Assembly: GCA_947630705.1 (NCBI GenBank)
Contig: CANRIK010000004.1
Span: 1 to 64,000 of the forward strand
Direction of reading: 5' to 3'
Length of the DNA stretch: 64,000 nucleotides
Source: an uncultured Clostridia bacterium
GTDB lineage: Bacteria > Bacillota > Clostridia > Christensenellales > Borkfalkiaceae
A program made the position numbers and the translations under genes. Below are positions 58,847 through 64,000 of the stretch, piece by piece; position 1 is the stretch's first letter; every line of letters starts with the position of its first letter. The notes beneath the pieces were generated by a model. That model was not told the DNA's origin, made no database searches, and saw only the letters and a list, made by a program, of their open reading frames with translations.

Positions 58847-58902
<56 letters not shown>

Positions 58903-58913
58903 TCCCTGTACCG

Positions 58914-59100: not shown

Positions 59101-59757
59101 TTAAACTATATGCTTTTGACGCAGCTTGTTAAACAGGTTGTTTACTGCTTCTATGTAACAAACAAATGACGGGTGGTTATGATCGTTACGGGTTAGATAA
59201 GTGTTTTTTAATCTTAAATATTCTTGCCTGACTGCCTCCCAATTTCCGCTTTCTTTTATGCAATCTGCTTTTTCTTTAATATCCTGCGAATGAGGTGCTT
59301 CATTCCAAAAATATTTATCGTTTAACACATATCCCGTTTTCTCATGAATAAGCCGATACCATTTTCTATCGCTTGTAGTTACAATGCACACATCGATCGA
59401 AAACAGCATATCGTGAACAGATTTGAAATAAATCGGTTTAGTCGTTAATGTTGATGTGGAGTCGTCGCAATCGTAAAGGCCGTAGGTTTTCAAAACTTTG
59501 TTAAAAGTTTTCTTGACGGTTTCTTTGATTGTTCGACAATCGTTGATGTCTCTGCATTTTTGGATATTTAAGTTATAATCGAAATCGATAGACTCGTTTT
59601 CGTTTTGGGAAACCATATTTCTTCCCCCGCTGCCCACCAAAAAGAATTGCGAACTGATTTCTGCCTCAAGCAGTTCTTTTGTCAAATCGCTTAAAAGTTC
59701 GGCGCAGTAATTTTGCGCGTTCTTAAGAAATGCTTTGTCTTTAACGTAATGATACAT
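59101..59757 (-). CDS. Nucleotidyltransferase-fold protein, unknown role
   Basis: A 218-residue island protein. FFLVGSGGRNMVSQNENESIDFDYNL (residues about 37-62) reads as the Pol-beta nucleotidyltransferase signature: hydrophobic-Gly-Ser, then a DxD pair that would bind metal. A third acidic residue may be the Asp of LFSIDVCIV. It lacks an obvious C-terminal sensor domain. Possible roles are nucleotide second-messenger synthesis, tRNA or protein nucleotidylation as a toxin, or regulation; none is shown. The ATG at 59757 has GGAGAA upstream. It is transcribed away from the R-M operon from a promoter sharing a 12-bp element with it. Confidence 0.55.
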   Translation of the reverse strand: MYHYVKDKAFLKNAQNYCAELLSDLTKELLEAEISSQFFLVGSGGRNMVSQNENESIDFDYNLNIQKCRDINDCRTIKETVKKTFNKVLKTYGLYDCDDSTSTLTTKPIYFKSVHDMLFSIDVCIVTTSDRKWYRLIHEKTGYVLNDKYFWNEAPHSQDIKEKADCIKESGNWEAVRQEYLRLKNTYLTRNDHNHPSFVCYIEAVNNLFNKLRQKHIV

Positions 59758-59809
59758 AAAGTTCTCCTTTCGCCCATGCCGTCCGTTTAGAATTTTTCTA
59801 AATCGGTGT

Positions 59810-59838
59810 ATTTTACATAATTTAAAGTCAAAAGTCAA
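59810..59838 (-). promoter_or_regulatory. Promoter of the nucleotidyltransferase gene
   Basis: Minus strand: TTGACT (59833-59838), 17-bp spacer, TAAAAT (59810-59815). Confidence 0.65.
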
Positions 59839-59938: not shown

Positions 59939-59970
59939 ACTGATAACAAAATGCAAGATGGAGAATGCGT

Positions 59971-60162
59971 ATGACCTATCCCGAAAAAGTTAAAATTGCG
60001 CGTGAAAAATTATTACTGACGCAGGACGAAATTGCTGCCGCTCTTGGCGTAAATTCCATTACGGTCTCGCGATGGGAAACGGGAAAATCAGAGCCGAATA
60101 TGAAAGCGAAAAAGGCAATAAGAGAATTTTGCGCTCAAAACGGATTGAAGTTCGAAGATTGA
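59971..60162 (+). CDS. XRE-family helix-turn-helix regulator (C-protein-like)
   Basis: A 63-residue single-domain DNA-binding protein. REKLLLTQDEIAAALGVNSITVSRWETGKSEP is the helix-turn-helix (residues about 9-42), typical of Cro/C1-type regulators. It is first in the R-M operon, the usual position of a controller (C) protein that delays or balances methylase and nuclease expression. The ATG at 59971 has GGAG 7 nt upstream; one two codons earlier is too close. It is followed by vsr after 1 nt. Confidence 0.85.
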   Translation: MTYPEKVKIAREKLLLTQDEIAAALGVNSITVSRWETGKSEPNMKAKKAIREFCAQNGLKFED

Positions 60163-60163
60163 A

Positions 60164-60616
60164 ATGCCGAATACGAAGGAACAAATTTCAAAAAACATGA
60201 AACGCAACAAAAGCAAAGATACTAAACCGGAGTTGCTTTTGCGTAAAGAATTGTGGCATCGCGGATTGCGTTATCGCAAGAATTATAGCAAACTTTACGG
60301 CAAACCCGATATTGTATTTTTGAGCGCAAAAATAGCTGTGTTCATAGACGGTAAGATGTGGCACGGTTATGATTGGGAACATCAAAAGAATGATTTTAAA
60401 AGTCGTAGAGAATATTGGATACCTAAAATCGAACGCAATATCGAGCACGATTTTGAGGTAACGCAAGAGCTCGTATCGCTTGATTGGTTGGTTTTAAGAT
60501 TTTGGGATTTCGAAGTCAAAAATAATCTGCAAGATTGTGCCGATAAAATTCAGCGAGCTTATGTCAACCGATCGGCGGTAAAAAGTAAAAGTCATAACGG
60601 AGAAGAAAGATGTTGA
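60164..60616 (+). CDS. vsr: Very short patch repair (Vsr-like) endonuclease
   Basis: A 150-residue nuclease of the Vsr family. RNKSKDTKPELLLRKELWHRGLRYRKNY is the N-terminal signature, GKPDIVFLSAKIAVFIDG contains the catalytic Asp, and MWHGYD the active-site His. Classical Vsr nicks at T:G mismatches produced by deamination of 5-methylcytosine beside a Dcm site. In MutL/MORC-linked R-M systems a Vsr-like protein has been proposed to act as the restriction nuclease. It overlaps the first methylase gene by 7 bp. Composition is A/T-rich. Confidence 0.92.
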   Translation: MPNTKEQISKNMKRNKSKDTKPELLLRKELWHRGLRYRKNYSKLYGKPDIVFLSAKIAVFIDGKMWHGYDWEHQKNDFKSRREYWIPKIERNIEHDFEVTQELVSLDWLVLRFWDFEVKNNLQDCADKIQRAYVNRSAVKSKSHNGEERC

Positions 60617-61587
60617 AAAGTATCGATTTATTTGCGGGGATCGGCGAGATCCGGTTGGGATTCGACCGTGCTTTCGGAGATTCTATCAAAACGGTTTTCG
60701 TGAGCGAATGGGACGAATACGCGCAAAAAACATATAGGGCGAATTTTCATGACGATTTCGAGATTGCCGGAGATATTACGAAGATTTCCGTGGACGATAT
60801 TCCCGACTTCGACATCTGTCTTGCCGGTTTCCCCTGCCAGGCGTTCAGTCTTGCGGGACAGCGCAAGGGTTTCAAAGACGACTATAAGGGTATGGCGCGC
60901 GGAACTTTGTTCTTCGACGTTGCGAGGATCTGCGAAAAGAAAAAGCCGAAAGTCATCTTTTGCGAAAACGTAAAAGGACTTACGATCCACGACAAAGGAA
61001 GAACTTTCGAGATCATCACCGAAACATTGAAACAAATCGGCTACAAACCGTTCGAGAAGATTTTGAACAGCAGAGATTTCGGTGTACCGCAAAACCGTGA
61101 GCGCATCTATATTGTTGCCTTCCGTAACGATATTGCTCCCGAAGAATTTATCTTCCCCACGCCCGTGGATTCGAGTAAGCGTATCAAAGATATTATCGAA
61201 GAAAAGCCCGTCGCCGCCAAATATTATTTGAGCGACGTTTACATGGAAACATTGAAGCGGCATAAAGCGCATCACGAAGCCAAAGGACACGGCTTCGGTT
61301 ACGAGATAAGAGATTGGGACGACGTTGCGGGAGCGATCGTTTGCGGCGGAATGGGCAGAGAGCGGAATTTGATTATCGATAAACGCCAAACCGATCTCAC
61401 GCCTACCACACATATTAAGGGAGAAATCAACAAGGACGGCGTTCGTAAAATGACTCCGCGCGAATGGGCAAGACTGCAAGGCTTCCCCGAAAGTTATACT
61501 TTCCCGAATACCGTCCAGAAGCGCGAGCAATACAAGCAAGCCGGCAATACGGTGTGCTTATGTAAAATTTTAAACATAACAGTATGA
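60610..61587 (+). CDS. DNA (cytosine-5) methyltransferase 1, C-terminus altered
   Basis: A 325-residue 5mC methyltransferase. Motif I is IDLFAGIGEIRLGF, motif IV LAGFPCQAFSLAGQRKGF (catalytic Cys), motif VI FCENVKGL, motif VIII GVPQNRERIYIVAF, and motif IX-like MTPREWARLQGFPESYTF. Motif X begins as QAGNTV but then runs into CLCKILNITV and stops, without the usual VPVIxxIA helix. At that point (about 61556) composition drops to A/T-rich, as if the cassette joined there. The gene is richer in GC than its neighbours. The recognition site lies between motifs VIII and IX and cannot be read. Activity is uncertain. Confidence 0.88.
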   Translation: MLKSIDLFAGIGEIRLGFDRAFGDSIKTVFVSEWDEYAQKTYRANFHDDFEIAGDITKISVDDIPDFDICLAGFPCQAFSLAGQRKGFKDDYKGMARGTLFFDVARICEKKKPKVIFCENVKGLTIHDKGRTFEIITETLKQIGYKPFEKILNSRDFGVPQNRERIYIVAFRNDIAPEEFIFPTPVDSSKRIKDIIEEKPVAAKYYLSDVYMETLKRHKAHHEAKGHGFGYEIRDWDDVAGAIVCGGMGRERNLIIDKRQTDLTPTTHIKGEINKDGVRKMTPREWARLQGFPESYTFPNTVQKREQYKQAGNTVCLCKILNITV

Positions 61588-61594
61588 GGACTCA

Positions 61595-62575
61595 ATGATT
61601 AATATTGAAGTTAAGTTTCTGAATAATATGCGATACATCGATTTGTTTTGCGGTATCGGAGGATTTCATTTGGCACTATCGTCTTTCGGCGCCGAATGTG
61701 TTTTTGCGTCTGATATTGATAGTAAAGCACGAAACGTGTATGAAAATAATTTCAAGATTGAACCGAGCGGAGATATAACGAAAATAAAAAACAAAGAGAT
61801 TCCGCCGCATGATATTTTATGTGCAGGCTTTCCTTGTCAACCATTTAGTATTTCGGGAAATCAAAACGGATTTAACGATCCGCAAGGAAAATTATTTTAT
61901 CAAATAATCAGAATAGCAAGATTTCATAAGCCGAAAATTTTGCTATTGGAAAATGTAAAAAATTTGAAAACGCATAACAATTCAAAGACAATTGCAGAAA
62001 TTAGAAAACAGTTGAATAAAATAGGCTATGATGTTTATGATGAAATTTTATCCGCTTCAGATTTTGGCATTCCGCAAGCACGGGAACGCTTATATATTGT
62101 AGCAATCAAGAAAAGTTTAAGAGTTAAACAGTTTAACTTCCCTACAGCAAAAAGAAAAGAAATTCATTTGAACGACATTTTATATGATGAATCCGATAAA
62201 TATGACGTTCTTGTTAAAAGACAGTATTCCATAAACGATCGCCCGCTGCATAAAAAAGGACTTATACAAGTCGCAAGAATCGGCAAAGGTCGGCAAGGCG
62301 AAAGAATATATAGCCCTGAAGGCTTTTCTACCACTTTATCATCTCAAAGCGGAGGATTAGGCGGCAAAACGGGAATGTATTTGATAGACGGCACGGTGCG
62401 AAAACTTTATCCGAGGGAATGTGCTCGCTTAATGGGTTTTCCCGATAACTTCATTTATGCAAAAGAGATTTCAAGTGCGTACAAACAGTTTGGCAATAGC
62501 GTCGTCGTAGACGTTTTGCAATATATAGTTAAGGAAATTGTAAATTCTATGGAGGTTAGAAATGGGAAAATTTAA
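61595..62575 (+). CDS. DNA (cytosine-5) methyltransferase 2
   Basis: A 326-residue, A/T-rich 5mC methyltransferase. Motif I RYIDLFCGIGGFHLAL, motif IV LCAGFPCQPFSISGNQNGF, motif VI LLENVKNL, motif VIII GIPQARERLYIVAI, motif IX-like YPRECARLMGFPDNF and an intact motif X QFGNSVVVDVLQYIV. GAGGA lies before the ATG at 61595; a start 11 codons on is possible. Target-recognition regions differ from the first enzyme, so two different sites, or two strands of an asymmetric site, may be methylated. Its end overlaps the ATPase gene by 14 bp. Confidence 0.92.
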   Translation: MINIEVKFLNNMRYIDLFCGIGGFHLALSSFGAECVFASDIDSKARNVYENNFKIEPSGDITKIKNKEIPPHDILCAGFPCQPFSISGNQNGFNDPQGKLFYQIIRIARFHKPKILLLENVKNLKTHNNSKTIAEIRKQLNKIGYDVYDEILSASDFGIPQARERLYIVAIKKSLRVKQFNFPTAKRKEIHLNDILYDESDKYDVLVKRQYSINDRPLHKKGLIQVARIGKGRQGERIYSPEGFSTTLSSQSGGLGGKTGMYLIDGTVRKLYPRECARLMGFPDNFIYAKEISSAYKQFGNSVVVDVLQYIVKEIVNSMEVRNGKI

Positions 62576-64000
62576 AATGTCAATTGATTACAATGTACTG
62601 AATCATTTGGGAATTAATTTGTATTCAAATATTCCAGCCGTATTATCCGAGGTTGTGGCGAACTCGTATGATGCTGATGCCTCTGAAGTAGATATTTTAA
62701 TCGGCAACAATGAAGTTACAATTGTTGACAACGGGTGCGGCATGTCGGAATCCGATATTAATGAAAAATACTTATTAGTAGGTTATCAAAAGCGCCGTTC
62801 GACAAATGGCGCTGTAATTACACCCATCTATAAACGCAGAGTTATGGGCAGAAAAGGCATAGGGAAATTATCTTTGATGTCCATAGCTAATGTAATTGAG
62901 CTTCATACTGTTAAAGATAAAATTCCCTCCGCTTTTAGAATTACCGTTTCCGATATAACGAAATTAATTGAATCGGGAAGTAAACAACCTTATGAACCTC
63001 AGGAGATTACCCCTGATAATACGTTATTAAAAGGGACAAAAATTATTTTAAAGGAGATTCGAAATAATCGGACTTTATCAAAACCAGAAAAGATAAGAAC
63101 GGAGTTGGCTCGACGATTTGTTGTGTTAAATAAGTGCTTTTGTATAAAGGTAAATGGCGAAGAAATAACATTTGCCGATCGAAAATATTTTGATAAAGTC
63201 ATAAAAATATTTAAGTATGGCAATCCTATCATTGACATAGATCCCCAAATCTCATTTTTCGATGACGCTTTAAAAATAGAAGAAAGAAGTAATGTTATTG
63301 AATTGAATGGAAAAAAACATGAAGTAGTTGGTTGGATTGGCTATGTAGACAAAAGTGATGAGCTGAAAGACGGGAATATTAGTCTAAATAAAATTTCTAT
63401 ATTGACAAATGGTAAATTAGGGCAAGAAGATATTTTGCAAGAATTACACAACACCAGTATGTTTACGAGTTATATTATTGGTGAAATTGAAGCTAATTTC
63501 CTTGATGAAGAAAAAGATTTATCCACTTCCAACCGCGAAGGTTATCAAAAAGACAACGTAGAGTATGAAGCGTTGTTCAATTTTTTACGAGAAGAAATTA
63601 GTCACATTGGAGTTGATTGGAATAAGCACAAAGAGCACCAAGGAGTTTCTGCCGCAATTAATGTTGAGCCTAAAATTAGAACATGGTACGAGTCTTTAGA
63701 GGGAGATGAAAAATTATACGCAAAGAAAATCCTTGGGAAAATCAACAAACTCATAACAGATGAGGCTCAAAGAAAAGATTTTACAAAATATGGGATTCTT
63801 GCATTTGAAAAAATGCGCTTGCGCAAAAATCTTTCTGCTATTGAACAATTTGATGAAAAGGCCATTGCCGCTTTGCCTTCGATTTTTCAAGGAGTAAACG
63901 ACTTGGAAGAAAGTATGTATTATCAAATTGTTAAACAAAGAATGGATATTATTGAAAAATTTGAAAATATTACAGAGCAAGACCAAAAAGAAAAAGTTTT
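62562..64000 (+). CDS. GHKL-type (MutL/MORC-like) ATPase, runs off the window
   Basis: At least 479 residues, open to the last base. The N-terminal Bergerat-fold ATPase has VVANSYDADASEVDI (Mg2+-binding Asn), VDNGCGMSE (adenine pocket Asp) and the lid RVMGRKGIGKLSLMS. A transducer-like middle follows (EVVGWIGYVDK), then DLSTSNREGYQKDN and a helical region from about residue 330. This matches the ATP-binding proteins placed with 5mC methylases and Vsr-like nucleases in predicted R-M systems related to MORC. It would supply an ATP-dependent clamp or switch. GGAGG lies 6 nt before the ATG inside dcm2. Confidence 0.85.
   Translation, partial: MGKFKMSIDYNVLNHLGINLYSNIPAVLSEVVANSYDADASEVDILIGNNEVTIVDNGCGMSESDINEKYLLVGYQKRRSTNGAVITPIYKRRVMGRKGIGKLSLMSIANVIELHTVKDKIPSAFRITVSDITKLIESGSKQPYEPQEITPDNTLLKGTKIILKEIRNNRTLSKPEKIRTELARRFVVLNKCFCIKVNGEEITFADRKYFDKVIKIFKYGNPIIDIDPQISFFDDALKIEERSNVIELNGKKHEVVGWIGYVDKSDELKDGNISLNKISILTNGKLGQEDILQELHNTSMFTSYIIGEIEANFLDEEKDLSTSNREGYQKDNVEYEALFNFLREEISHIGVDWNKHKEHQGVSAAINVEPKIRTWYESLEGDEKLYAKKILGKINKLITDEAQRKDFTKYGILAFEKMRLRKNLSAIEQFDEKAIAALPSIFQGVNDLEESMYYQIVKQRMDIIEKFENITEQDQKEKV

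Follow-up and report, generated by a model that had tools for sequence, protein, structure and literature searches.

A tRNA-Ser island of an uncultured Clostridia bacterium with a predicted BbrUII/HgiDII-type restriction pair behind the remnant of an HpaII-type system

Genes of the locus and the family of its GHKL protein

The window analysed here comprises the first 64,000 nucleotides of a 107-kb contig (CANRIK010000004.1) from the 1.59-Mb draft genome, in 18 contigs, of an uncultured Clostridia bacterium (GCA_947630705.1). At its right edge lies a restriction-modification (R-M) locus of five genes, all on the forward strand, encoding an XRE-type regulator, a Vsr endonuclease, two cytosine-5 methylases (M1 and M2) and a GHKL ATPase (R), with spacings of 1 bp, a 7-bp overlap, 7 bp and a 14-bp overlap (Table 1). 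Pfam recognised HTH_3 in the regulator (37.9 bits, cut-off 23), Vsr (PF03852, 93.8 bits, cut-off 27), DNA_methylase in M1 and M2 (304.1 and 314.4 bits, cut-off 22) and HATPase_c_3 in R (65.6 bits, cut-off 25), and the Vsr protein reached 131.8 bits with TIGR00632 (cut-off 97.85). Because the domain scores are well above the cut-offs, the gene identities are beyond chance. The first-pass annotation had listed the same tightly spaced genes at this place, with the XRE gene starting at the second of two ATGs, and had taken them for one MutL/MORC-type R-M unit; as a whole this interpretation was borne out in part.

The gene of R was completed from the same contig past the window edge, giving a protein of 650 aa. 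It scored 683.9 bits against the NCBIfam model NF050001 (BbrUII/HgiDII family restriction enzyme; cut-off 550), with residues 4-644 of 650 aligned to model positions 1-655 of 659. In PADLOC only two models, both for type II restriction endonucleases (REases), matched up to E 0.01, and Pfam recognised the GHKL part alone. The segment past the edge holds E505, D528 and E542-x-K544. Among 54 aligned sequences the GHKL residues E30, N34, D56, G58, G60, G96, G99, G101 and T159 are identical in all, as are the nuclease residues E505 and D528; E542 is kept in 52 (D in two) and K544 in 53 (R in one). Likeness to MutL was confined to N-terminal stretches and was not significant in one of two comparisons. 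Judged by family membership and motifs, the ATPase is the restriction enzyme of the locus. The first-pass annotation had seen no classical restriction enzyme; the ATPase itself matches a restriction-enzyme family above the cut-off and does not group with an unrelated housekeeping one. Of the parts expected downstream, a PD-(D/E)XK-like nuclease motif is present in the C-terminus of R, and no helicase was recognised among the island genes (two genes being of unassigned function).

An alignment-based scan confirmed 436 relatives of R, and the counts below use the best 79 loci; several of these share genomes and hence are not independent. Single-sequence scans with R confirmed no relative in genome_contigs (38 stretches) or viral_contigs (2 stretches). 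Eight further weak NF050001 matches (L163-L170; L and G numbers are our handles for loci and genomes) were checked for methylase likeness only and excluded from the counts. A recognised methylase lies within 500 bp of the R homologue in 57 of the 79 loci, being HgiDII-type in 51, M2-type in three and of another type or weak in three, and a Vsr gene occurs within 2.5 kb in 16. The three M2-type loci (L050-L052) hold the nearest relatives of R, 76, 71 and 50% identical to it, and an M2-type methylase adjoins the R homologue in each. Together with R they form a clade with 100/100 support in a tree of 37 GHKL modules; a long-branch warning concerned the distant rows L162, L038, L034 and L035, outside this clade. 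In the locus L040 (Escherichia phage PhiR44_1, 6001-9049) an R homologue annotated ParaMORC3 adjoins a Dcm gene and is flanked by portal and replication genes; judged by its gene names the phage looks P2-like.

M2 resembles M.HhaI over its whole length and is 25-29% identical to the HgiDII-type partner methylases. An HgiDII-type methylase, usual but not universal in the NF050001 family, does not lie beside R here. Since M2 is M.HhaI-like and its type adjoins the nearest relatives of R, M2 is likely the partner of R. Two stretches of M2 that we take to be its recognition loops, GKGRQGERIYS and SSQSGGLGGKTG, are similar but not identical to GKGGQGERIYS and SAYGGGIFAKTG of M.HhaI, whose recognition loops contact DNA; it does not follow from this likeness that GCGC is the site of M2.

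R might instead be a stand-alone Shedu-like nuclease (type I-D, VcSduA-like) that senses something besides unmethylated sites, with M2 incidental. VcSduA shares the GHKL and PD-(D/E)XK layout, and such proteins are annotated paraMORC3 in the available part of PMC12137116. The 22 loci of 79 that have no recognised methylase within 500 bp would fit a stand-alone enzyme, as would a weak SduA_C match (E 0.0037, 17.9 bits, below the cut-off of 27) of a related GHKL protein, L037. R itself, however, has no Pfam SduA_C match up to E 0.1 and exceeds the cut-off of a restriction-enzyme family; a methylase is near its homologues in the other 57 loci, and the GHKL-TIR protein of a sister island likewise stands directly behind M2. 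We consider this alternative unlikely.

Table 1. Features of the island within the window.
Feature	Position	Strand	Basis
Attachment site: 59-bp direct repeat, left copy, 3' part of tRNA-Ser	58847..58905	.	Repeat search
Cargo gene of the island, 245 aa, function not assigned	59101..59838	-	98% identical in sister island; Pfam match weak, sub-cut-off
XRE-type regulator of the HpaII-type module	59965..60162	+	HTH_3; ahead of Vsr-M1 in relatives
Vsr endonuclease of the HpaII-type module	60164..60616	+	TIGR00632 above cut-off; directly 5' of M1 in relatives
M1, HpaII-type cytosine-5 methylase, chimeric	60610..61587	+	M1 to about codon 289, then 3' end of Mb (second methylase, same system)
14-bp repeat CTGCAAGGCTTCCC, M1/Mb join	61474..61487	+	Base-by-base comparison and repeat positions
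M2, cytosine-5 methylase resembling M.HhaI, likely partner of R	61595..62575	+	M.HhaI 335 bits, residues 1-320; M2 type adjoins R in L050-L052
R, GHKL ATPase with C-terminal PD-(D/E)XK-like nuclease motif, BbrUII/HgiDII family	62562..64000 (gene continues to 64514)	+	NF050001; motif conservation

The HpaII-type module and a fused methylase

A sister species (genome G542) carries a corresponding island, split over two contigs (L142 and L155) that were joined via 77 identical overlapping bases. On L142 the same tRNA repeat is followed by the cargo gene, XRE, Vsr, M1 and an HpaII-type REase, and L155 continues with a second methylase (Mb), M2, a GHKL protein (X), an integrase and tRNA-Ser.

When 296 genomes of the order, including its own, were searched with M1, 12 matched at E <= 1e-60, and nine of the eleven others were fetched (L141-L149). 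Their M1 proteins are 71-93% identical to that of the window. Directly 3' of M1 all nine have an HpaII-like REase, in two frames in L143 and cut by the contig end in L142, which is 26-38% identical to an Acinetobacter plasmid REase named 'HpaII family' in PLSDB; PADLOC calls the plasmid enzyme a type II REase and NCBIfam gives it no name. NCBIfam also had no name for the REases adjoining M2-like methylases of Spiroplasma and Borreliella. The REase of the sister, the sole one of the nine scanned, reached 151 bits with RE_HpaII (cut-off 25). Vsr is directly 5' of M1 in seven of the nine, XRE precedes Vsr in four, and Mb lies 3' of the REase in seven and, for L142, on the next contig; no Mb was seen 3' of the REase in L145. 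At the locus in the window the HpaII-type REase is missing, and it was not found in the same genome at E <= 0.01, with the same query matching in three of three control relatives. Gene order and homology mark XRE-Vsr-M1 as what is left of an R-M system of the HpaII type. Another Clostridia genome has an HpaII-type system (Vsr, methylases, HpaII-like REase) in tandem with a BbrUII-type system of methylase and GHKL REase (L055, 907-7974). The host genome holds two more cytosine-5 methylase-like stretches near each other (C2:47523-50902), 33-35% identical to Mb.

This assignment bears on the proposal that all five genes form a single MutL/MORC-type R-M system in which Vsr and the ATPase are the effectors and the two methylases serve one strand each of an asymmetric site. 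Such a system would suit genes that overlap or almost touch, and XRE, Vsr and M1, which are 98, 98 and 90% identical to those of the sister and there too lie upstream of M2, indicate that the array was kept together recently. Yet in all nine fetched relatives M1 belongs to an HpaII-type operon, as does Vsr in seven, and none of the three such genomes searched (G542, G642, G529) has a match to R at E <= 1e-20. In L050 and L051 M2-R is present, and no M1-type gene was detected in the sequence covered (961 bp before M2 in L050). R moreover bears its own nuclease motif, and M1 is a chimera, as described below. We regard one common system as very improbable. The idea that R has an asymmetric site served by two methylases was rejected, M1 belonging to the HpaII-type module, and so was Vsr as an effector, which goes with the same module.

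The chimeric nature of M1 became apparent from comparison with the sister, where CTGCAAGGCTTCCC occurs in both M1 and Mb with 2085 bp between the copies, comprising the end of M1, the HpaII-type REase and most of Mb. In the related contig L141, which is unbroken, the copies stand 2085 bp apart as well. Between the tRNA repeat and 61487 (2642 bp) the window matches L142 at 97.3% identity; between 61474 and 62520, in the last codons of M2 (1047 bp), it matches L155 at 97.6%. The C-terminal residues of M1 in the window are those of the sister's Mb. The chimera was found in none of the nine fetched relatives: the five aligned have their own M1 C-terminus, and the match to the window's M1 stops at residue 317-319 in all nine. 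The simplest account would be a deletion between the two copies of CTGCAAGGCTTCCC, by which the REase was lost and an in-frame M1::Mb fusion with the recognition region of M1 arose. M1 probably acts as a free-standing methylase, since it retains the M1 recognition region and the alignment shows the methylase motifs in place.

Draft genomes, and a sister island on two contigs with an overlap of 77 bp, raise the question whether the chimera or the change of effector described below is an assembly artefact. The exact repeat at the junction is just 14 bp, however, which is below common assembly word lengths, and the locus is internal to the 107-kb contig. A search of the rest of the genome did not find the missing REase, all three control genomes being positive, M1-REase-Mb occurs on one unbroken contig in L141 with the same distance between repeats, and Vsr-M2-X is unbroken in L160. 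An artefact thus seems highly unlikely.

The island and the effector of its sister

The M2 proteins of window and sister are 95% identical. Directly behind M2 the sister has, in place of R, the GHKL protein X (L155 2224-4272, 682 aa). Its GHKL module gave 176 bits with NF050001 over residues 5-416 (cut-off 550), and its C-terminal part is a TIR-like domain by its matches to PADLOC spbK (E 1.5e-10) and to the solved SpbK (E 0.00098). PADLOC spbK matches all five GHKL-TIR proteins (L155, L160, L161, L035 and L038) with E values of 1.1e-9 to 2.9e-34. It counts against the TIR assignment that Pfam gave no TIR match in X up to E 0.1 or, up to E 0.05, in L035 and L038, and that its TIR_2 matches in L161 and L160 are below the cut-off. 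A single GHKL-Ymh/HEPN protein was found (L162, genome G555 of the same genus; Pfam 56 bits, cut-off 25). In L162 (1539-4273) it follows an HgiDII-type methylase, with an Mb-type methylase fragment upstream at the contig start. A cytosine-5 methylase lies within 500 bp in all six GHKL-TIR or GHKL-HEPN loci, a Vsr gene intervening in L161; these loci are no survey, L155 having come from a methylase search and the other five from searches that used R, X or NF050001. In L160, Vsr is followed by an M2-type methylase (56% aa identity to M2) and an X homologue (57%).

The likeness of M2 to the sister ends in methylase motif X at 62520 and that to L050 begins at 62484; after this motif the tail of M2 resembles L050 and not the sister. 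Because M2 and protein X diverge alike between L155 and L160 (56 and 57%), R and M2 are unequally conserved against L051 (76% and only 56%), and the tail of M2 is L050-like, the comparison points to R as the later arrival, brought in by recombination within motif X of M2, a direction that we infer.

The island itself is defined by an integrase, the 59-bp tRNA-Ser repeats and an intact tRNA-Ser gene. The right copy of the repeat, at 67441-67499 of the same contig, lies within the intact gene (tRNA-Ser(tga) according to ARAGORN, L002 11442-11529), with 98% identity over 59 bp and a spacing of 8594. The island of the sister also ends in tRNA-Ser, yet its flanking sequence has no match to that of the window. 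The 245-aa cargo gene points away from the operon and has a 29% identical relative near M2-R in L051. Right upstream of the integrase, past the window, there is a 61-bp direct repeat (82%; contig 64671-64731 and 64745-64805, L002 8672 and 8746), at which identity to the sister island picks up again after the differing effector. The integrase tail (contig about 66126-66485, L002 10127-10486, past the window) differs in frame from the rest: here there are 414 aa from the ATG used and a separate 119-aa open reading frame (ORF), and in L155 a single ORF of 499 aa.

Proposed mode of action and relation to known systems

Taken together, we consider it very probable from these comparisons that an integrase-bearing tRNA-Ser island carries a type II pair of M2 and R behind the HpaII-type remnant XRE-Vsr-M1. 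M2, being HhaI-like, would mark the host DNA by methylating a cytosine at a site that contains CG. By analogy with GHKL enzymes R would work as an ATP-gated dimer and, as its family suggests, would cleave DNA unmethylated at the site of M2 via its C-terminal nuclease. M1, left without its REase most simply by the deletion and in-frame fusion to Mb, would be a leftover methylase, and Vsr would repair T:G mismatches arising from deaminated 5-methylcytosine at M1 sites.

Site avoidance was an ambiguous guide to the target. BbrUII cleaves GTCGAC. In 419 kb sampled from the host this palindrome occurs 15 times against 89.0 expected (observed/expected 0.17, rank 9 of 64 palindromes), and in 224 kb of G542, which has no R, 58 times against 61.4 (0.94). 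A CG-centred M2 site covering GTCGAC would reconcile the family of R with the type of M2, although this is a guess. Avoidance of GCGC was seen in none of host, G542 and G411. Other palindromes strongly avoided in the same host sample are CTGCAG (0 vs 54.4 expected), CTTAAG (1 vs 49.0), CTATAG (2 vs 64.8), CTCGAG (3 vs 96.7) and CTAG (19 vs 268.5).

Several observations weigh against the M2-R pair as proposed. GTCGAC is avoided more strongly in 166 kb of G411, a relative without R (0 vs 36.9 expected), and GCGC has an observed/expected ratio of 1.11 in the host. M2 departs from the usual partner type (HgiDII), and matching specificities are therefore an assumption. The loci in which no methylase was recognised within 500 bp of R (four of the 22 near a contig end, six from one genome) indicate that R may sometimes act alone, and its nuclease fold is assigned from a sequence motif. 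The source genome is a draft. Finally, no clear empty island site was found among the genus genomes examined: the RadC-like left and GrpE-like right flank genes, present in 55 and 59 of 61 genomes (own included), share a contig in four relatives (G697, G718, G736, G747) and there lie about 11 to 39 kb apart (positions compared by eye), so an empty site was not demonstrated.

As a mobile type II R-M system from a named family the pair is ordinary in kind; two features are unusual, the methylase fusion and the presence of different weapons behind near-identical methylases. The fusion describes a route by which a restriction system may lose its REase, namely in-frame fusion of its own two methylases. 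The two islands form a natural matched pair, with a nuclease or a TIR effector behind M2, which makes the role of GHKL ATPases in restriction systems testable: does the GHKL part read methylation regardless of the weapon? Tentatively, the GHKL module and a methylase may constitute a general sensor of unmethylated DNA with varied weapons, which the island swaps by recombination inside conserved methylase motifs. The M2 type would then possibly go with a GHKL-nuclease or with a TIR domain (predicted NAD-consuming suicide), and another methylase type with a HEPN RNase. In that case one recognition system would have two interchangeable outputs, restriction by cutting and methylation-licensed abortive infection. 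No description of an effector exchange behind one methylase, or of such a methylase chimera, was found in the open-licence literature (titles, abstract starts and passages).

Within the BbrUII/HgiDII family (NF050001; M.HgiDII, M.BbrUII) R is a full-length member with a cytosine-5 methylase directly upstream; M.HgiDII recognises GTCGAC according to the accessible part of PMC5867850. The usual partner is HgiDII-type, whereas that of R and its three closest relatives is M.HhaI-like. With the HpaII-type operons of related Clostridia (L141-L149) the window has M1, Vsr and XRE in common; those operons have their REase, whereas the window lacks it and has an M1 that continues into the 3' end of Mb. 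The MZA system includes a GHKL ATPase near a cytosine methylase, as here, and was rejected, MzaB being far below its cut-off (11.8 bits vs 850) and no partner gene being recognised in the island. The GHKL kinase in the available text of PMC13373217 is unrelated.

VcSduA of Shedu type I-D has the same order of GHKL ATPase and PD-(D/E)XK-like nuclease (PMC12137116, as far as available); R differs in the lack of a detectable SduA_C (DUF4263) and sits with a methylase. GHKL-nuclease, GHKL-TIR and GHKL-HEPN proteins in R-M settings are already in print. In the accessible passages of Iyer, Abhiman and Aravind (2008), MORC and paraMORC R-M operons carry an SFII helicase and a minority lack it; a classical MORC-helicase operon was rejected here, no helicase being recognised. 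With paraMORC3 of that account R shares the N-terminal GHKL module, the C-terminal E-D-ExK nuclease motif and the methylase neighbour. There the class is defined with S5 and RE-fold and its function inferred from context, whereas in R the GHKL part is assigned by HATPase_c_3 and the nuclease by an alignment motif, and R falls in a named restriction-enzyme family. The paraMORC4 proteins (GHKL-TIR; Iyer 2008, same passages) have a related GHKL module beside methylases, and the TIR form occurs behind the near-identical M2 of the sister island; Ymh/HEPN-paraMORC fusions are placed in R-M neighbourhoods in the available part of Anantharaman 2013 (PMC3710099). The effector in the window differs from both in being a nuclease, and R ties the BbrUII/HgiDII restriction-enzyme family to the paraMORC ATPases.

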